DNA of 64,000 nt from Candidatus Ornithospirochaeta avicola (GTDB lineage Bacteria; Spirochaetota; Spirochaetia; Sphaerochaetales; Sphaerochaetaceae). Of this stretch, positions 37,398-47,265 are shown in pieces. The notes beneath the pieces were generated by a model. It saw only the letters and a list, made by a program, of their open reading frames with translations, was not told where the DNA came from and did no database searches. Position numbers and translations under genes: made by a program. The first letter of the stretch is position 1. Each line of letters begins with the position of its first letter. The stretch is from positions 1 through 64,000 of the forward strand of contig DXHU01000005.1 of NCBI GenBank assembly GCA_019113245.1, read 5' to 3'.

Positions 37398-38324
37398 GTG
37401 AAAGGCAGAATAATAAAAAGCGCTAACAATATTTACACTCTCTCTTCTCTTTTAGACTCATCTATTTGCCAGGCAAGGATAAAAGGGAAGGTGCTTGATT
37501 CTGTCAAGGGCGAATACAATCCTCTTGTTGTAGGCGACATTGTTTCATATATTCCAAACACTCAGGGAGACAGCATGATTACTGAGCGTGAGGAGAGGGC
37601 AACAAGTTTTGCGCGCTGGAATGTAAAAAAACTTATAAACCAGACGATATGCGCGAACATGGATCAGGTTGTCATTGTCTCAACTGTATCAAATCCTCCA
37701 TTCCGCCCGCGCTTTATTGACAGGGCAATATGCTGTGCAAGAAATGCTGAGATTGTAATTGCAATCAATAAGGATGATCTTGAAGTTTCTCCTTTTGTCT
37801 CATCATGGTGTAAGCTCTACAACGCTCTTGGATTTAAATGCATAACAATCAGCGCAAAGGAAAAAAGGCTGGACGCACTTATTGAGCTTCTGAAAGGAAA
37901 AACAAGTGCTTTTGTAGGCCAGAGCGGATGCGGCAAGAGTAGCATAGTGAACGCGCTCTTGTCCTTGAATGAGAAGACTGGGGAAATAGTCAGCAAATAT
38001 GACAGAGGACGTCATACAACAACTTCTTCCACATTCTTCTACGGAGAGGAGTATAACATAATAGACACTCCTGGAGTGAGAGAGATTTTAGTTCCTCTTG
38101 AAGATGAAAGCCTTGTAAAGGAATGTTTTCCAGAACTTAAAGATGCCACCTGCCTTTACTCATCCTGTCTGCACTACGGGGAGGAGGGATGCGCTGTACC
38201 AGAGCTTATTGATAAGAATATTGTATCCCCAGAGCGCTATGAGAGCTATTTAAGGATTCTTGAGTCCCTATTTGAAAGAAGACCTGGCTATATGAGAAAG
38301 AAGGCAAATGAAAGGCAGAAGTGA
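37398..38324 (+). CDS. rsgA: Small-subunit assembly GTPase RsgA
   Basis: 308 residues. The OB-fold N-terminus is followed by a circularly permuted GTPase (G4 AINKDDLE, then G1 GQSGCGKSSIVNALL, then G3 DTPGVRE) and a zinc knuckle CLYSSCLHYGEEGC. It helps mature the 30S subunit. The start is GTG. It overlaps mutS2 by 17 bases. Confidence 0.94.
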   Translation: MKGRIIKSANNIYTLSSLLDSSICQARIKGKVLDSVKGEYNPLVVGDIVSYIPNTQGDSMITEREERATSFARWNVKKLINQTICANMDQVVIVSTVSNPPFRPRFIDRAICCARNAEIVIAINKDDLEVSPFVSSWCKLYNALGFKCITISAKEKRLDALIELLKGKTSAFVGQSGCGKSSIVNALLSLNEKTGEIVSKYDRGRHTTTSSTFFYGEEYNIIDTPGVREILVPLEDESLVKECFPELKDATCLYSSCLHYGEEGCAVPELIDKNIVSPERYESYLRILESLFERRPGYMRKKANERQK

Positions 38325-40623
38325 TAAAAAAGGACTTATTCTCATTGAACTTGACAAGGTCCTGGATGACGTTAAGAAGAACATGCTTTTTCCTGAAAGC
38401 GAGAGCTATATAAACATAGATCTTGTGACAGGAGACAAAGATAAGCTGGAGAGTAGAAGATCCTCCTTTGATTTCTTCCTTTCCCGCTTAGAGGGAGGAG
38501 AAGTTGATCTGGATTCTTTTCCCCCAATTTCCCCGATACTGAGGAATATCAGGATAAGCCACCAGGACATCGATGCCGCTGATATCTACAGTGCAGCAGT
38601 ATTCCTTTCATCCTACTTTAAAAGCAGGAGGTTCCTTTCTGATGAGTTTATGCCAGATGAGAATGATGAGCTTTTTGTAAACGATGTTTTTTCGTATTTG
38701 GATGCTCAGGGAGGAGTCAACCTTTCTCATCCGAGGATTTATCCGCTTGTTAAGGAAATAGAGAAGAAGAAGGATGAAAGAAGCCGCTATACTCTTTCTT
38801 TCATGAAAGAAAATGCTGAGATTGTAATGAGCGAGAATCCGTCATTCCGTGACCAGAGGCTACTTATCCCAATCAGAGCTGAAAAGAAAGGCCAGATAAA
38901 AAGCTATATTCACAGCTCTTCATCATCCGGGCAGACTCTTTATGCTGAGCCCTTTGCTCTTGTGGATCTCAATAACAGCGTCTTTCTTGCCGAGGACAGG
39001 CTCAGAGCAGAGATAATGAAAATAAAGCATGAGCTTTCTGAGCGTCTGAGATATATTTCACCATATATTGAGAAAAAGGTCGAAGAAGTAAAGTCCTTTG
39101 ACTTCTTTTATACATTCAGCCTCTGGATAAAGAAGAACAGGGCAGAGCATGTCGAGTTAGCAGACACTCTTTCCTTAATCGAGGCCCGTCATCCTCTTTT
39201 ATATGAAAAGGCTGTTCCCATATCGATAACACTCGATGAGAATGTTAAGGCAATTGTCTTTTCCGGCGCGAATGCAGGAGGAAAGACAGTAAGCATGAAG
39301 ACAATTGCGCTCCTTGCCGCAATCAACCAGATTACGACATATATTCCAGCAAGCGGGAAATCGAAGCTTCCTCTTTTTTCTTTTTTCCTTGCAGACATCG
39401 GAGATAATCAGGACATACTTTCTGATGCTTCCACATTCTCAGCTCATCTGAAGAACATAAGGCATGTAACAGAGAAGGCTGACAAGAATTCCCTTGTGCT
39501 CCTTGATGAGCTAGGAAGCGGCACGGACCCGAAAGAGGGCTCTGCATTCAGCATTGCAACGCTTGAGTTTCTGAAAAGAAAAGCCCGTCTTACTCTTGTT
39601 TCCAGCCATTACTCGGATGTGAAGAATTATGCATATGTCTCAGAGGATATAATAAATGCATCCCTTGCGTTTGACGATAAAAGCGGTGTGAGCCTTTATA
39701 AGATCATTGCAGGGCTTCCAGGAGACAGTCATGCGCTTTCTGCAGCACGCAGGGCAGGGATTAATGCTGAGATAATAAAAAAGGCAGAGGATCTTCTTAA
39801 GGACAACAGCTCAGAAAGTGTATCGCTAATCAATTCTCTTATTTCAAAATCAAGGAGCCTTGATAAGAAGATAAGCCAGGCAGAGAATGAAAGAAGGACG
39901 CTGAAATTCAAGAAAGAGGCTCTGGAAAAGAAGATAAAGGAAAATGATGATATCTCTTATTCTCTTGAAAAGGAAGGATTGAAAGAGCTGAACAGGCTTA
40001 CTGACGAAATTAAGAGAAAGCTTGAGCGCCTGGTTATGGAAATAAGGACCGGCGAACTTGACAGTAAAAAGATAAAAAGCGTCAAAGATTTCATCTCTTC
40101 ACTCGATAAAGAGAAGGAAAAGGTTTCATCAAGCGTTGAGAAAAAGAGAAAAGAGAGAGAGGAAGCGGAAGAGGAGATAATATTCTCCCCAGGCGAGCTT
40201 GTATTCTGCGGAGAGAGCAGAAGCAAGGGAAAGATCATAAAGAAAGTGAGGAAGAACCAGTATCAGGTTGCGCTTGAAAACGGACTTAAGCTCACTCTCT
40301 CTGCATCTCTTATAACAAGTAGAAGCCAGGAAAAGAGCACAAGCGTTAGCTTCTCTGTAGAAAAGAAAAATGCATCCTATGTCGTTGATTACAGAGGCCT
40401 TAGCCTTGCAGAGGCGAAGGAAAAGCTTGATGCTCAGATTGAAGCCGCTCTTTATTCAAATGTATCCTCATTCTCGATAATCCACGGCTTAGGGGATGGA
40501 ATACTCATGCGCGGCCTTCATGAAGAGCTTAAGAACAATCCCTATGTTTCATCATATTATTTTGCACGTCCAGAGGACGGAGGGATGGGCAAGACCTACG
40601 TTGCTCTTAATCTTGATTTATAA
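38308..40623 (+). CDS. mutS2: MutS2, ribosome-rescue/recombination ATPase
   Basis: 771 residues. The core has the ABC-type ATPase motifs: Walker A GANAGGKTVSMKTI (usually GPN-GGKT), Walker B VLLDELGSGTDPKEGSAF and VSSHYSDVKN. A coiled-coil region and KOW-like segment (GKIIKKVRKNQYQVAL) precede the C-terminal Smr nuclease domain (YRGLSLAEAKEKLD, IIHGLGDGILMRGLHE). It acts on collided ribosomes or recombination intermediates. The last about 17 codons belong to the 232-bp stretch duplicated by the IS insertion downstream. Confidence 0.92.
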   Translation: MKGRSDKKGLILIELDKVLDDVKKNMLFPESESYINIDLVTGDKDKLESRRSSFDFFLSRLEGGEVDLDSFPPISPILRNIRISHQDIDAADIYSAAVFLSSYFKSRRFLSDEFMPDENDELFVNDVFSYLDAQGGVNLSHPRIYPLVKEIEKKKDERSRYTLSFMKENAEIVMSENPSFRDQRLLIPIRAEKKGQIKSYIHSSSSSGQTLYAEPFALVDLNNSVFLAEDRLRAEIMKIKHELSERLRYISPYIEKKVEEVKSFDFFYTFSLWIKKNRAEHVELADTLSLIEARHPLLYEKAVPISITLDENVKAIVFSGANAGGKTVSMKTIALLAAINQITTYIPASGKSKLPLFSFFLADIGDNQDILSDASTFSAHLKNIRHVTEKADKNSLVLLDELGSGTDPKEGSAFSIATLEFLKRKARLTLVSSHYSDVKNYAYVSEDIINASLAFDDKSGVSLYKIIAGLPGDSHALSAARRAGINAEIIKKAEDLLKDNSSESVSLINSLISKSRSLDKKISQAENERRTLKFKKEALEKKIKENDDISYSLEKEGLKELNRLTDEIKRKLERLVMEIRTGELDSKKIKSVKDFISSLDKEKEKVSSSVEKKRKEREEAEEEIIFSPGELVFCGESRSKGKIIKKVRKNQYQVALENGLKLTLSASLITSRSQEKSTSVSFSVEKKNASYVVDYRGLSLAEAKEKLDAQIEAALYSNVSSFSIIHGLGDGILMRGLHEELKNNPYVSSYYFARPEDGGMGKTYVALNLDL

Positions 40624-40805
40624 TCAGCATATTCAGAATAGAATCTGTACTTAAAGTACAGATGTTAACTGTTTTTATATAAAAAGTTAAAGGGTACTAT
40701 AAATTAATTAATTATAATATAATAAAATAAATATAGCAGGGGGGGGTACTCTAGACTAAAATCATTACTTTTAGTGTGTTTTACGTTGACAATGGCTTAT
40801 ACTGC
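40574..40805 (+). repeat. Direct repeat copy 1 (long target-site duplication)
   Basis: 232 bases covering the mutS2 tail, its stop and the AT-rich intergenic region. They recur at 42741-42972 with four substitutions and no indels. The copies flank the IS exactly. The last base may be part of the IS end. Confidence 0.9.
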
Positions 40806-40858
40806 CTGTCTTTAGACTTTGAGTAGCAGGAATTTGTGCTAAAGCTGCTAAAGACAGG
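40805..40858. repeat. Hairpin at the left end of the IS
   Basis: 11-bp inverted arms (40805-40815 and 40848-40858) with a nested TAGCAG/CTGCTA pairing, just beyond the transposase stop at 40865. It resembles the hairpin at 174-237 of the other IS. Confidence 0.65.
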
Positions 40859-40864
40859 AAAAAA

Positions 40865-42562
40865 TTAATCCTTTAAGCCCATCTTTCTGAGCACATTTGA
40901 ATCAAGAAAGAGGTTGTTGAGCGGTATTCCAAGTGAGGCGGAAAGCTCATCAATGAAGGGGCTTGCAATCGACATGTTCATGTATTCACCCCTGCCGGTC
41001 TGTGCCACCTTGAAATCCCTCATGAACTTCATTATCTCCGGGCTTCCGAACCTGCCCTTGAGTATATGCACCTGGAGAATCCTCACGAGCAGCACGGCGA
41101 TGTAGCAGATGAGGAAATGACCTTTGATGCAGTCCTCTTTCTGCAGGAATACTGGTCTTGCATCAAGGGATGACTTCATGACGCGGAAGGATTCCTCTAT
41201 CCGCCACAATGAATGGTATGTCGAGTATATCTCCCTTGCGCTCATCCTCGTCTCGGAGGTCACAATCAGGTTGTATCCTGCGAGCTCGAGATCCCTGTCT
41301 ATGGCCTTCTGGTTGATGGAAGCCACAGCCTTCCTGCCATCATCAAAGGAACAAAAGTCAATGTACTTGCCAGAGTCCCCGAACTCCGACCTCTTGGCCT
41401 CGGAATAACAGAGGGCCTTTGCCTTCTCTGCCAACTTCCTTATCTCGTATGTTTTTTTCTCCGCAAGCTTCGGAGACCATGTCAGCACTCTCTTCTCCGT
41501 CAGGCTCACCGTAACCGTCTTGCCTTCGTCTGTAGTGTATGAATAAGGGAACTTATCGACGCATTCCTTGTAGCGGTAATGGAGCGAGCCGGCGCTGTCC
41601 AGCACATCCACCCAGTCATCGCTGTTCATGGTCACCCAGATCTTCTCTTTCTCCGGAAGCTGCTTCACTGACTTTGAGAAGATGTATCCATCTCCGTCTC
41701 TCCTTGCCTTCGTGATGTTCTCCGCGCAGTTCAGGCCTTTATCCGCAACATGTATAGTCCTTCCCTTGATGCGGTTCTTCTCCTTCAGTTCCGCAACAAT
41801 CTCCCTCAGCACGGGCTTCTCGGACTGGTTTCCCGGATACATCTTCATCCCAATCGGGATCATGTCCGCATCCAGCAAGAGCCCTAGGCCCACAATCGGA
41901 TCCTTCTTCATTTCCTTGCTCGGCCCCTTCTTCCTGAAATCATCCTCCCTGTCTATCTCGAAGTAGAAATTGGTGCAGTCGAAGTATGTCGTCCCGGTCC
42001 TCGTCCCATACTTCCGTTCCGTAAGCGCGGCGAACAGTTCGGTGAGCTTGCTGTACTCGCTGCCGAGAAATTCGCAGCATTCAAGTATCTGGTCATATGA
42101 GATGTCCTGCCCGCCGAACAGCTGCGGTAGCACATCATGGAATGTCGCCCGCTTGGAGCATGGCGCGATGACCCTCGCGAAGACAAGGGATGAGAGCGCA
42201 TCATACAAGCCGAATCTGAATCCCCTCACTCCCTGCCAGAGGTCAAGATACCTCTCAACATCAAGCTCCTCCATTATCCTCTTGAGAGGGAAGTACCCAA
42301 TGCTCTTCAAAGGCCCTTTCTCACCAATCTTCTTCCCTTTCCCTGCCTGCTTCCTGATCCTCTCTTCAGCATTCAGTCCATCCACCTCCTTCTGGAAGTG
42401 CGCAATCGGATCGTCAATCCCGCTCGCGACAAGGTCGTCATAATAGCCAAGCGAGCGGTAGCATGACTGTACTACATGCCCCCTTTCCTTGCTTAGCGCG
42501 CCTGAATATATCTGCAGATACAGCCCTTTCTTGTTCTTTGTCTTCTTGAGGAAATATGACAT
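40865..42562 (-). CDS. IS1634 family transposase
   Basis: 565 residues from the ATG at 42562, which has AGGAGG upstream; in-frame codons beyond it are not credible. DDE residues are seen in TYFDCTNFYFEID, IHVADKGLNCAENI and YHSLWRIEESFRVMKSS. The DDPIAHF signature is shared with the transposase at 261-2117. The gene is intact and probably functional. Base composition (more G+C, few A-T third positions) differs from its neighbours, suggesting recent arrival. Confidence 0.92.
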   Translation of the reverse strand: MSYFLKKTKNKKGLYLQIYSGALSKERGHVVQSCYRSLGYYDDLVASGIDDPIAHFQKEVDGLNAEERIRKQAGKGKKIGEKGPLKSIGYFPLKRIMEELDVERYLDLWQGVRGFRFGLYDALSSLVFARVIAPCSKRATFHDVLPQLFGGQDISYDQILECCEFLGSEYSKLTELFAALTERKYGTRTGTTYFDCTNFYFEIDREDDFRKKGPSKEMKKDPIVGLGLLLDADMIPIGMKMYPGNQSEKPVLREIVAELKEKNRIKGRTIHVADKGLNCAENITKARRDGDGYIFSKSVKQLPEKEKIWVTMNSDDWVDVLDSAGSLHYRYKECVDKFPYSYTTDEGKTVTVSLTEKRVLTWSPKLAEKKTYEIRKLAEKAKALCYSEAKRSEFGDSGKYIDFCSFDDGRKAVASINQKAIDRDLELAGYNLIVTSETRMSAREIYSTYHSLWRIEESFRVMKSSLDARPVFLQKEDCIKGHFLICYIAVLLVRILQVHILKGRFGSPEIMKFMRDFKVAQTGRGEYMNMSIASPFIDELSASLGIPLNNLFLDSNVLRKMGLKD

Positions 42563-42647
42563 GAAACCTCCTAAGGACAGTATAGCACAATAGCACAAAT
42601 AATAAAACATATGAAAAAGAAATTTCAAAATTTTTTGCAGGAAGAGG

Positions 42648-42681
42648 AAACCCCCATTTGCAACATACTAAACGGGGGTTT
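42648..42681. terminator. Strong hairpin upstream of the transposase
   Basis: AAACCCCC at 42648-42655 pairs with GGGGGTTT at 42674-42681. It lies between the transposase start and the IS end, where it could block outside transcription from entering the gene. Confidence 0.55.
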
Positions 42682-42809
42682 CAATCATTCATCGGTTTGG
42701 TGGTTCTAAAGATTTATTGTGCTAAAAGTCTAAAGACGGGAGGACGGAGGGATGGGCAAGACCTACGTTGCTCTTAATCTTGATTTATAATCAACATATT
42801 CAGAATAGA

Positions 42810-42830
42810 ATCTGTACTTAAAGTACAGAT
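42810..42830. promoter_or_regulatory. Palindrome upstream of the chaperone-usher promoter
   Basis: ATCTGTACTT, a central A, and AAGTACAGAT form a perfect 10-bp palindrome. A second inverted repeat, ACTAAAA and TTTTAGT, lies at 42922-42942 next to the -35 box. Either could be an operator. Confidence 0.45.
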
Positions 42831-42905
42831 GTTAACTGTTTTTATATAAAATATTAAAGGGTACTATAAATTAATTCATTATAATATAATAAAATAAATA
42901 TAGCA

Positions 42906-42913
42906 GGGGGGGG
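42906..42913 (+). repeat. G8 homopolymer near the chaperone-usher promoter
   Basis: Eight consecutive G residues lie about 40 bases upstream of the -35 box; copy 1 has the same length (40739-40746). Homopolymeric G tracts are slippage-prone and control tpr promoters in Treponema pallidum. Confidence 0.85.
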
Positions 42914-42952
42914 TACTCTAGACTAAAATCATTACTTTTAGTGTGTTTTACG

Positions 42953-42981
42953 TTGACAATGGCTTATACTGCTTTTAGAAT
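42953..42981 (+). promoter_or_regulatory. Promoter of the chaperone-usher operon
   Basis: A perfect TTGACA at 42953-42958, a 17-base spacer and TAGAAT at 42976-42981, 64 bases before the chaperone ATG. The -35 and spacer are in the duplicated copy 2, the -10 in unique DNA. Confidence 0.75.
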
Positions 42982-43044: not shown

Positions 43045-43779
43045 ATGAAACGACTAGCGATTTTACTTTGTCTTGTTGTTTTCTGTCTGTCTGCTGCATA
43101 TTCATATCAGCTGTCTCCGCTTAATGCAACTTATGATTCAAGCGGGCCGGATAGTCAGAAAATATACACAATAGTAAATGACTCGGATTCACCGATTGCA
43201 ATTGAGATCTCTGCAGTAAAGAGGAATATCGACATAAATGGTGAAGAGTATAATGAAGATGCTTCTGCATATTTTTCTATTCAGCCCAGCAAGATGATAA
43301 TACGCCCGCAGAGCACTCAGCTTGTGCGGGTGCAGTACCGTGGTCCAAGCACTCTTACTGAAGAGCAGAGCTTCAGAATAATTTCTGAGCAGATTCCTTA
43401 TTCTGTAGGTGCTCAGGTTCCTGACTCAGGTCAGATGATTTCCTTCCTCTTTGTATATTCAACAAGTGCATATGTTCGCCCATCGCGCGTAATTGAGTCG
43501 GTTACAAGCACAGCAGATCTTGATGAGGACGGAAAGCTTAGTGTGACAATAGAGAACACAGGAAGCGTGCATCAGCTTTTAAACTCACTTTCTGTTACTG
43601 TCACCTCTGATAACGGTGCAAGCTATACTTTCACTGAAGAAGAGCTTGAGGCAATATCAGGAATTTCCCTTTTAACAAACTCCAAAGTCGTTGTGAGAAC
43701 AGAAAATGCACCTTCTGAGCTTCTGAGTGCAGACAATCTTAAGGCATCTGTCTCTTACGACTACTCATATTCAAATTAA
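43045..43779 (+). CDS. Periplasmic pilus chaperone, PapD-like
   Basis: About 244 residues from the ATG at 43045. A signal peptide (MKRLAILLCLVVFCLSAAYS) is followed by two Ig-like domains. The first has the P-S-K-M-I-I-R-P element, with QLVRVQYRG forming the G1-like strand of alternating hydrophobics that donates to subunits, and FRIISEQIPY as in PapD/FimC. The single chaperone would fold and cap all fifteen subunits encoded downstream. The GGAG binding site is 10 bases off the ATG. First gene of the operon, 21 bases before the usher. Confidence 0.85.
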   Translation: MKRLAILLCLVVFCLSAAYSYQLSPLNATYDSSGPDSQKIYTIVNDSDSPIAIEISAVKRNIDINGEEYNEDASAYFSIQPSKMIIRPQSTQLVRVQYRGPSTLTEEQSFRIISEQIPYSVGAQVPDSGQMISFLFVYSTSAYVRPSRVIESVTSTADLDEDGKLSVTIENTGSVHQLLNSLSVTVTSDNGASYTFTEEELEAISGISLLTNSKVVVRTENAPSELLSADNLKASVSYDYSYSN

Positions 43780-43800: not shown

Positions 43801-46800
43801 GTGAAAAAGGGGAAGAAATATACTCTTTTAGCTATGTTTCTTATTCTTTTAGTTCTATCCATGGCATTCTTTGTCATGGACTTTGTGTCATTGCTGAGAG
43901 CCCCTGATTTTTCCTCTTTCATATCCCCGCTTCTCTTAGACATTTTATTCATAATCCTCTTTGCTGAGGCACTTAAAGCGTTGGTAAAAGAAAAAGAAGG
44001 AGAAAAAGAAGAAAGAATGAGGGAGTACTTTATAACATATCTTCTTACATCTCTCATCCTTTTAGCTCTGCTTGCTCTCTTTTCTTCCCATCGCGACATT
44101 CTGCTTGCTCTCTCTGCAGCTTTGGTTATCTCCAGAGCAGTTTTCTTTGCCTTTGACAAATCAGGAGGAGAAACAGCAGGAGAGACTGATTTAATCATTC
44201 TTCCAGCTCTTCTTGTAATTCTTTTATTCCTCATTCTTCTTTTCATCTTCAATCCCGGCGTGAAAGAGAAAGAAAGGGAGAAAACAGAGACAGCAATAAT
44301 AGAAACAGAATATGAAAAAGAGATGCTTTCTCCTGAGATTGTGGAAGAAACAATAATTGAAGAAGAAACAAAGGCGGAGGAAGCTGTCCTTGATACAGTA
44401 TATGTAAGCATAAAAGGTATTTCTTCTTCTCCTGAACTAAGCGTTGATGAATCCGATCTCATTGATGTTCCTGTTCCTTCTTCTCCTTCTCTCAAGACAC
44501 ACGATAGCTCTTTAAGCCTTGTGGATGTTCCTTCTAAGGCAAGCCTTGAAGTTACTTATAAGTATCTAGAAGATGTGATTATTCCTTCTCCGGCACTCCT
44601 TTCTGTTGAAAGCCAGATTCTCACAGATGAGGTCTCTTATGAATTGAGCGGCTACTTTGCAGACTTCTATATTGCCGGACTTGACTCGCTTGAGCTTCTG
44701 GACGGCACATATTACATGGACCTTTATGTCAATGACACATATGCAGGAAACATAGAGGTCATAAGCCTTTCTGGAAACATAAGCCTTTCAAAGAACATGC
44801 TTGAAGCATACCTTACAGATCTTCTTACAGATGAAGCTTATAAGAGAGTTCTTTCATATGGCGAAGAATACATACCTCTTGAATACTTCTCATCAATAGG
44901 AGTTGACAATTCCTTTGATGTCGATGAATACAGAATTGACCTATATTTCTCACCTGAGGACATGCCGGTTCAGATAATAAGCGTCAGAGGAAGCTCTTCA
45001 CGCTATCAAAGACGCACGATTAATGACGGCCTGACGCTAACTCCAGCAACATTTACTCTTTCCAGCCGCTACAGCTTAAGGGCAAGCAACAGCGATATTA
45101 CAGACAATAGCAACCTTTTAAAGGGAACAAGACTTTCCCTCGGTGTCACAAACTCATGGAGACTATTTGATGTTTACGGCACATTCTCATACAGCATGGG
45201 CTATCAGGACAAGGATTTCGATTTCGCTTTCGGATCTTATTCATCCTATTACGATATTCCTGAAAAGATGATGAGAATAAGCTGGGGCAATGTATCTACT
45301 GATCTTCTGAGTGCAAAAGGCACTGCTTTAGGAATCCGCGTTGAGACAAGTCCCTCATATGCCGGAAGAAACGGCTACCGCAGGAACTACTATGAGCAGG
45401 TAATTGTTGTTGAGAAGACCAGCGATGTGGCTATCTACAACAATGCAGGAGGACTTGAGAACAATGAGATTTTCAGAAGAACGCTCTCTCCTGGAATATA
45501 CCGATTAAGGGATTTCGTGCTCTATAGCGGAGCAAATGACATACTAATCAGGATTTCTCCTCTTGATGGCTCAGAGCCTGTTGAAATCACGATGGACGTG
45601 CTTTACTCATCATCTCTTCTTGCAAAGGGTGAGACTTATTTCTCAGCCGCACTCTCTACAGGAAGGATTAAAAGCACTGTCGGCTCACAAAAGGATGATA
45701 TAGTGCTTTCGATCCCGATGTGGAACTCTGTGCGCTATGACTATGATATAAGAAACCTCTCTGCATCGCTTCATTTCAGAAGCGGAATAACTGAAAGGGC
45801 AACACTTGATATGACATTTGCTCTTTCAAATACTCCTGAAAAGGATAATCCTCTTAATCTCAAGGGTGCACTGTCTGCCGAGCTTCTTCATGCCAACAGG
45901 GCAGGAACTGCTCGCTACAACATGTCAATCCGCCTTAGTGAGAAAGATGATGAGCTTGCCCCGCCAAGCCTTACTCTGCGCTTCGGGCAGGGATTCTCTA
46001 CAGGCCTTAAAGCTCTTTCGTCAGTAAATCTTTCTGTAAACTACTATTATTCTCCGACTATATGGTCAGTCAAAGAGGGACACAGTGCAAGCCTTTCTCT
46101 TGGAATAGGTGGAGGCTATGGAATAATGAGCTGGTCGCTTTCATCATTCATCCAGAGTGGCATTCCTGACTTTGAGACTTTCACGCTCAGCGAGAGTTTC
46201 TCTTCCTCTTTCAGGCTTACAAGCAATTTCTATCTCTCGCTTTCGCTTTCAATGGGTGTGAACAAGAGCGGGATATCAAGTGCAAGCGGAAGAGTCACAG
46301 CATCCCTGCGCTTTGGAAGAAACAGCATAAATGCATCTACTGACGCAAAGAGCGCAAGTGCCAACTACTCATACTACAGCGGAAGGCATAATGTGAGTGC
46401 ATCAGTAAGCAACTGGGGAGACTTTGACAAGCTTGCATCTTACTCTCTTGGAGCAAACTACTCATATAGCGGAAAGTATGTCTCACTCTCGTCTTCTCTT
46501 AATACGGACATGAGTCTTGACCGTGTAGCTCTTTCTCTCTCGCTTTCTACTGCATCAGTATTTGCTGACGGTCTTTTTGCCTTCACTGGAAGCGTTCCTT
46601 CTAACTATATTCTTGTAAAGCAGAAGGGAGCACTGAGAGGCAACGACCTTTTTGTCGGCCAGATGGGCAACAGCAGTCTCTCTGAGCTTCCAACTCTTTT
46701 CAATACAGGAATATATACAGACCTTTCAAGCTACGGAGACTCCCTGATGGTTTACAGCTCATCAGAGGACGGATATTACTCATCTAATAGCATTGCTGTA

Positions 46801-47265
46801 AACATTCCTGAAAGCTCAAGGCGAGGCTATGTTTTGAGACTGGATGCAGATTTGACTTTCAGTCTCTCCGGTGTTGTTGAAAAGCCGTCAGGCGAGCTCT
46901 GGATAAACGCATCAAGCCCGCTATATGAAGTTGTGAAAGATGAGAATGGAAACACAGAGCTTGTAAGCAGCGGAAATTATCTCTTCACAGACTCTTCAGG
47001 ACGCTTTACAGTAAGTGAACTTGGCAAGGGAACTTATGCTTTTGATGTTGATGATAATGATGAGTGGTATCTCTACACATTCACTGTCAGCGGTGATGAT
47101 CACTACTACGGGTATATAAATATGCTTGAGGATGCAGAAATCTCTGAAGAATCAGTTTTATTAGATATATACTCAGCAGTCTACAGCTATGAAGACGGAG
47201 AGAGGTTTACAAGCGATGAGTTCTTCTCATTCCTCTATCCTGACTTCAATAAGGAGGCAGTATGA
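43801..47265 (+). CDS. Outer-membrane usher fused to an N-terminal membrane domain
   Basis: 1154 residues from a GTG start behind AGGGGG. The usher N-terminal domain lies at about 280-395: LDGTYYMDLYVNDTYAGNIE corresponds to the PPGTYRVDIYLNNGY part of FimD. A plug region at about 530-605 (TLSPGIYRLRDFVLYSGAND) and Tyr/Ser-rich beta-barrel strands follow, and a C-terminal domain lies at about 1030-1154. The first 150 residues contain five hydrophobic helices (about 8-28, 40-62, 77-96, 99-117, 130-150), followed by an acidic linker of about 130 residues. No known usher I can recall has such a part; ordinary ushers begin with a signal peptide. The frame is continuous, and the stop overlaps the first subunit by four bases. 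Confidence 0.82.
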   Translation: MKKGKKYTLLAMFLILLVLSMAFFVMDFVSLLRAPDFSSFISPLLLDILFIILFAEALKALVKEKEGEKEERMREYFITYLLTSLILLALLALFSSHRDILLALSAALVISRAVFFAFDKSGGETAGETDLIILPALLVILLFLILLFIFNPGVKEKEREKTETAIIETEYEKEMLSPEIVEETIIEEETKAEEAVLDTVYVSIKGISSSPELSVDESDLIDVPVPSSPSLKTHDSSLSLVDVPSKASLEVTYKYLEDVIIPSPALLSVESQILTDEVSYELSGYFADFYIAGLDSLELLDGTYYMDLYVNDTYAGNIEVISLSGNISLSKNMLEAYLTDLLTDEAYKRVLSYGEEYIPLEYFSSIGVDNSFDVDEYRIDLYFSPEDMPVQIISVRGSSSRYQRRTINDGLTLTPATFTLSSRYSLRASNSDITDNSNLLKGTRLSLGVTNSWRLFDVYGTFSYSMGYQDKDFDFAFGSYSSYYDIPEKMMRISWGNVSTDLLSAKGTALGIRVETSPSYAGRNGYRRNYYEQVIVVEKTSDVAIYNNAGGLENNEIFRRTLSPGIYRLRDFVLYSGANDILIRISPLDGSEPVEITMDVLYSSSLLAKGETYFSAALSTGRIKSTVGSQKDDIVLSIPMWNSVRYDYDIRNLSASLHFRSGITERATLDMTFALSNTPEKDNPLNLKGALSAELLHANRAGTARYNMSIRLSEKDDELAPPSLTLRFGQGFSTGLKALSSVNLSVNYYYSPTIWSVKEGHSASLSLGIGGGYGIMSWSLSSFIQSGIPDFETFTLSESFSSSFRLTSNFYLSLSLSMGVNKSGISSASGRVTASLRFGRNSINASTDAKSASANYSYYSGRHNVSASVSNWGDFDKLASYSLGANYSYSGKYVSLSSSLNTDMSLDRVALSLSLSTASVFADGLFAFTGSVPSNYILVKQKGALRGNDLFVGQMGNSSLSELPTLFNTGIYTDLSSYGDSLMVYSSSEDGYYSSNSIAVNIPESSRRGYVLRLDADLTFSLSGVVEKPSGELWINASSPLYEVVKDENGNTELVSSGNYLFTDSSGRFTVSELGKGTYAFDVDDNDEWYLYTFTVSGDDHYYGYINMLEDAEISEESVLLDIYSAVYSYEDGERFTSDEFFSFLYPDFNKEAV

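Follow-up and report, generated by a model that had tools for sequence, protein, structure and literature searches.

Long target duplications and promoter context of IS1634-family insertions, studied from a pilus operon of Candidatus Ornithospirochaeta avicola

An insertion in the promoter between mutS2 and a pilus operon

How can an insertion sequence (IS) lie between the -35 and -10 boxes of a promoter and leave the genes on both of its sides provided for? This question is raised by a locus in a 64,000-nucleotide stretch of Candidatus Ornithospirochaeta avicola (contig DXHU01000005.1, positions 1 to 64,000; here, the window), in which an IS separates mutS2 from a putative pilus operon (Table 1). 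The IS is flanked by a maximal direct repeat of 233 bp (40573-40805 and 42740-42972) that is 98% identical, with four mismatches. With the IS ends fixed from relatives (CC...GG), the target duplication itself is 231 bp, and one chance-matching base on each side extends it to the maximal repeat. The junction falls 13 nt past TTGACA, within the -35/-10 spacer. Copy 1 runs directly into IS sequence (C-CTGTCTTTA) and no promoter is listed at its junction; the contiguous TTGACA-N17-TAGAAT is present at copy 2 only. The whole of mutS2 is retained at copy 1, and no more than its last ~50 bp recur in copy 2. The first-pass annotation had described an IS between two 232-bp direct copies with four differences, inserted in the spacer of the pilus promoter such that copy 2 keeps the promoter intact, copy 1 keeps mutS2 whole and both neighbours are spared; the arrangement is as it described, and its length lies within the measured 231-233 bp. 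The label "pilus" derives from a single Pfam match (PapD_N chaperone, E=3e-7). The 1154-aa open reading frame (ORF) that follows the chaperone gene has no Pfam or NCBIfam match; the next two ORFs, both small, are likewise without a Pfam match.

Table 1. Features of the insertion site and its neighbours; positions are those of the window
Feature	Position	Strand	Remarks
mutS2	38308..40623	+	TIGR01069, E=1e-165; intact; last 50 bp inside the duplicated segment
Target duplication, copy 1	40574..40804	+	Adjoins IS 3' end; has mutS2 3' end and -35, without -10
-35 hexamer of copy 1	40786..40791	+	Severed from its -10 by the IS
Target motif TATACTG	40798..40804	+	At 3'-end junction; clade A consensus TATRNTA; second copy 42965-42971
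IS1634-family insertion sequence	40805..42740	-	1936 bp
Terminal inverted repeat CCTGTCTTTAGACTTTGA	40805..40822	+	Transposase-3' end; target-specific end
Transposase CDS, 565 aa	40865..42562	-	DDE_Tnp_1 / NF033559 IS1634 family
Terminal inverted repeat CCCGTCTTTAGACTTTTA	42723..42740	-	Transposase-5' end; non-specific end
Target duplication, copy 2	42741..42971	+	Adjoins IS 5' end; whole promoter before the pilus operon
Pilus-operon promoter TTGACA-N17-TAGAAT	42953..42981	+	11/12 matches; same spacing in the sister-species empty site
PapD-like pilus chaperone	43045..43779	+	First gene past the rebuilt promoter; ATG placed by eye
1154-aa ORF	43801..47265	+	Probable next operon gene

The empty site predicted by the first-pass annotation, with a single copy of the segment, is found in a sister species of the same genus (G020), and no IS-less relative with both copies was seen. 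The orthologous mutS2-pilus interval of G020 lacks the IS and has one copy of the segment (G020:C6), which aligns to copy 2 over 232 columns with 24 mismatches (~90% identity) and has a contiguous TTGACA-N17-TAGAAT. Because the repeat is 233 bp long and exactly one copy stands at this orthologous site, a chance repeat is excluded. The two copies in the window differ from each other by 1.7% and from G020 by roughly 10%, indicating that the IS inserted after the two species split; the 1.7% difference also argues against an assembly artefact. The target motif, which reads AATACTG in the empty site, is present there and in both duplication copies and, therefore, belongs to the target rather than to the IS. 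When the four differences between the copies (40627, 40685, 40686 and 40710) are polarised against G020, copy 2 has the G020 state throughout and copy 1 carries all four derived states. This 4:0 polarity, with the changes in the copy whose promoter is broken, is suggestive of relaxed constraint, although it is not significant (two-sided p=0.125).

Two further sequence features lie within both copies. A run of eight G (40739-40746 and 42906-42913) is located ~40 bp upstream of the pilus -35, with GGGTGGG as its counterpart in the sister species, and is a candidate phase-variation site for the pilus operon. A 21-bp palindrome, ATCTGTACTTAAAGTACAGAT (40643-40663 and 42810-42830), directly follows the mutS2 stop and has its arms kept in G020; ATCTGTACTTAAAGTACAGAT is a candidate operator or terminator.

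Family membership and duplication length among relatives

The transposase matches the curated IS1634 model NF033559 with 324.9 bits (E=1e-96; cut-off 100) and its DDE domain gives a domain-level match to PF01609 (27.3 bits; cut-off 23), while matches to IS4 and IS701 are weak and below the curated cut-offs. The IS ends CCTGTCTTTA and CCCGTCTTTA and the length of 1936 bp fit the ends (C-----YT) and size (1500-2000 bp) tabulated for the IS1634 family (PMC2266710). In place of the direct repeats of 5-6 bp that are typical of the family, the window has 231 bp; this does not exclude membership, because the founding members, at 8-514 bp, also break the 5-6 bp rule. The nearest relative (G047; 90% identical protein), which is split over two contigs, has a 154-bp duplication, and relatives with several copies vary in length. 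We conclude that the window element is a new member of the IS1634 family showing a known trait, the long duplication, in line with the first-pass annotation, which had likened it to the very long and variable duplications of IS1634. The IS described here is the only close copy in the window genome. A second, distant IS1634-family element is located at about 132-2254 of the window, with a 622-aa frame and ends set by eye on the basis of locus L066; a duplication was not found at this element, outside of which the contig extends for only ~130 bp.

To place the 231 bp in context, we gathered related transposases from whole genomes and from public contigs. Duplications were called as maximal repeats bounded by proper ends, using a repeat-first caller with end checks that replaced end calling by inverted repeats only, which had given many false ends; 16 repeats whose ends were unclear or that contained N runs were left out. 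Viral contigs were scanned for relatives of the IS and contained none. The 83 clean-ended insertions, which are independent insertions rather than independent lineages as some relatives share genomes or lineages, have duplications of 33-831 bp (median 105, quartiles about 80 and 190), and the two copies are identical in 68/83. Helical phasing at 10.5 bp was not detected among them (p=0.99). In a minority of cases, about 9/41 in the first set, an element has good ends and flanks but no duplication. It is important to note that only surviving insertions are present in these data and that selection has shaped what is observed. Moreover, long duplications break assemblies, biasing surveys against them; contigs often end a few bases from these ISs (L098, L121, L053/L054 and similar).

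Complete genomes are informative about how the length is set. In G049, four identical IS copies have duplications of 110, 226, 83 and 323 bp, and in G358 three of five near-identical copies have 236, 87 and 116 bp. Thus, identical copies in one genome differ in duplication, and the length is set anew at each insertion; the first-pass annotation had named short fixed duplications in other copies as evidence against its reading, and the lengths in the two genomes, 83-323 bp, are all different and none is short and fixed. The remaining two G358 copies have no duplication of their own. Their left and right flanks match reciprocally over 177 and 311 bp, showing that the two copies recombined after insertion. 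These copies (L180, 1534000-1553000, and L182, 265000-284000) are in opposite orientation, and their flank exchange is the signature of a chromosomal inversion by way of the IS.

Target specificity at one end and promoter context

Read toward the IS, the flank at the transposase-3' end has the motif TATRNTA in clade A1 and TGNTATAAT in clade B. Over the first eight flank bases, the information at this end is 3.9 bits in clade A and 7.0 bits in clade B; over eight flank bases at the 5' end it is 0.6 and 0.9 bits, respectively, and random positions in the same flanks average 0.5 and 1.0 bits. Only the transposase-3' end is sequence-specific, and the 5' end is at background.

The clade B motif is a sigma-70 -10 box: TATAAT is matched in at least 5/6 positions exactly at the junction in 22/31 sites (background, 2%), TTGACA is matched in at least 4/6 positions at a spacer of 16-18 in 65% of sites versus 16% of control windows (p=3e-9), the -35 peak is at spacer 17 and an extended -10 is visible (T-15, G-14). 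Clade A1 junctions tend to lie within the -10 (TA|NNNT), and the -35 signal, 18-20 nt upstream of the junction, is weaker (9/27 versus 3.6 expected; p=0.007). The junction in the window, in the -35/-10 spacer, is slightly off the modal position for elements of its kind. In clade A outside A1, the -35 signal is weak or absent with no enrichment at 16-18, and for these sites "TATA-like, usually in promoters" is a safer description than "promoter".

These promoters point into the IS at its 3' end; the genes that they serve are found past the duplication copy on the 5' side. With gene orientation judged from the longest ORF rather than from annotation, the 5'-side gene reads away from the IS in 60/72 cases (60:12; p=8e-9), and the 3'-side gene reads away in 31 and toward the IS in 42. 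A Carnobacterium plasmid element illustrates the arrangement with a 175-bp duplication at TTGACA-N17-TATATT before a sugar-transport operon. On a Ligilactobacillus salivarius plasmid (L279:2477-2713), an IS1634-family element is joined at TGCTATAAT, immediately before the ermC leader; its duplication of 14 bp is the shortest observed among the targeting lineages. These cases are from a small plasmid set in which only some are interpretable (L278 and L283-L285 are without interpretable ends). Together, these data show statistically that IS elements of this lineage target promoters, with the duplication providing the downstream gene with a promoter copy. What the first-pass annotation missed is that duplication and preservation of the promoter are the usual outcome and not a peculiarity of this site. 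Selection contributes to the gene context, but the base-exact offset at one end is not easily explained by selection.

GC-rich actinobacterial relatives have duplications of 48-610 bp, and no TATA motif is visible at their junctions; a Mycobacterium plasmid relative has a 610-bp repeat. A long duplication, therefore, does not need the motif, and the two traits are separable. The actinobacterial and Aliarcobacter elements L280, L281, L282 and L286 have near-perfect symmetric ends, duplications of 48-682 bp and no visible -10 motif.

Proposed mechanism, rival explanations and known systems

In DDE chemistry, each 3'-OH of the transposon is linked to a single strand of the target. We consider it very probable that the window records a cut-and-paste (DDE) insertion with a promoter-directed 3' end, a variable 5' join and duplication by gap repair, a reading for which the sequences themselves show the duplication, its single-copy empty site, lengths that vary between identical copies, specificity at one end only, the promoter context and the orientation of the genes. 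Specifically, the IS 3' end, on the transposase C-terminal side, would join the target at a set distance from a -10-like TATRNTA or TGNTATAAT, and the strand joined would be the promoter template strand, at or just beside the -10. The IS 5' end would be joined to the other strand upstream of the promoter, at a distance that varies and does not depend on sequence, and gap repair would duplicate everything between the two joins. As this segment extends upstream of the promoter, the copy next to the IS 5' end would hold a complete promoter still joined to its gene, and the other copy would keep the end of the upstream gene.

A spacing of 33-831 bp without phasing is not compatible with two joins on one rigid duplex. 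We infer an order of events in which the first join would occur at melted or easily melted -10 DNA, the freed target 3'-OH would prime strand-displacing synthesis, and the second end would be captured late, wherever synthesis has reached. Such late capture would give duplications only, always upstream, with an unphased, long-tailed length and one specific end. Our tentative proposal, which we hold with less confidence than the insertion reading itself, is thus a promoter-targeting insertion in two steps, with attack on the template strand at a sigma-70 -10, perhaps in the open complex, and joining of the second end after strand-displacing synthesis. An IS1634-family transposase binds the beta sliding clamp, and stronger binding raises transposition (PMC4549789); this is compatible with strand displacement, although the clamp-binding element is itself flanked by 6-bp repeats.

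Clamp binding ties the family to replication (PMC4549789) and thereby also suits a different account, in which the two ends enter different DNA molecules, sister chromosomes behind the fork, and the offset between them makes the duplication. The unphased, wide range of lengths fits two molecules as well as one; yet joining to two molecules predicts deletions as often as duplications and no fixed direction from the specific end, whereas the segment always lies upstream from the promoter (deletions would escape scoring). On balance, we regard this account as unlikely. We give marginally more weight to the explanation, still an improbable one, that the motif reflects a mere preference for AT-rich, bendable intergenic DNA and that the -10 is not recognised as such. 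Duplicated segments are indeed more AT-rich than their flanks (GC 0.32 versus 0.42; p=4e-14), and clade A outside A1 has no -35 enrichment at 16-18. But the motif is base-exact and at one end only, clade B has an extended -10 with a -35 peak at 17, and AT-richness alone would not give a correctly spaced -35 or a fixed gene orientation.

Unequal recombination between two nearby IS copies with ordinary short duplications could in principle place long repeats around an IS, and recombination between copies does occur, as the reciprocally swapped flanks of the two G358 copies testify. As the origin of the long repeats it is largely refuted by the duplications in the complete genomes G358 and G049: 9/9 scored insertions in these two low-copy genomes have long and different duplications, the 83 insertions with long duplications come from many genomes, and the window genome has only its single close copy. 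Two nearby insertions each time would be implausible. We consider this origin highly improbable. Even less credible, to the point of being negligible, is that the IS landed between the copies of a pre-existing tandem repeat. Nothing speaks for this beyond the arrangement itself; in every relative the IS is bounded by repeats of a target unique to that insertion, and for the window site the single copy in G020 refutes it.

If promoter-directed insertion with late capture of the second end is correct, the long duplication would be a built-in means of inserting into a promoter without silencing the gene. One-ended -10 specificity together with a preserved promoter copy provides a concrete, testable model and a rationale for the tolerance of such insertions, and would add one-ended promoter targeting to known bacterial transposition. 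In practical terms, the repeats break assemblies and conceal rearrangements between IS copies, and this lineage may serve as a marker of promoters. In the openly readable literature that was searched, we found no report of one-ended specificity or -10 targeting by the IS1634 family.

The closest known systems are IS1634 of Mycoplasma mycoides and IS1549 of Mycobacterium smegmatis, with duplications of 8-514 bp, for which no mechanistic model had been proposed as of a 2008 review (PMC2266710). Compared by published description, they share with the window element the transposase family (NF033559), similar ends and long, variable duplications, and differ in hosts and sequences and from the range surveyed here, which extends up to 831 bp. 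Other members of the family by transposase and DDE chemistry differ in having short duplications: ISGka5 of Geobacillus has 6 bp (PMC8024623), and Acidiphilium IS1634-1 has three 6-bp flanking sequences (PMC4549789). In a quick tree, a branch with support 97 splits 45 long-duplication representatives from seven members with 5-7 bp, the latter being distant, long-branch rows. Because distant family members make 5-7 bp duplications, the long-duplication trait belongs to lineages within the family. The IS4 superfamily (IS4, IS701, ISH3) has related DDE transposases and duplications of 4-13 bp (PMC2266710). The long, variable duplications of IS1634 and IS1549 are, therefore, the known part, and our survey supports a new account of this trait.
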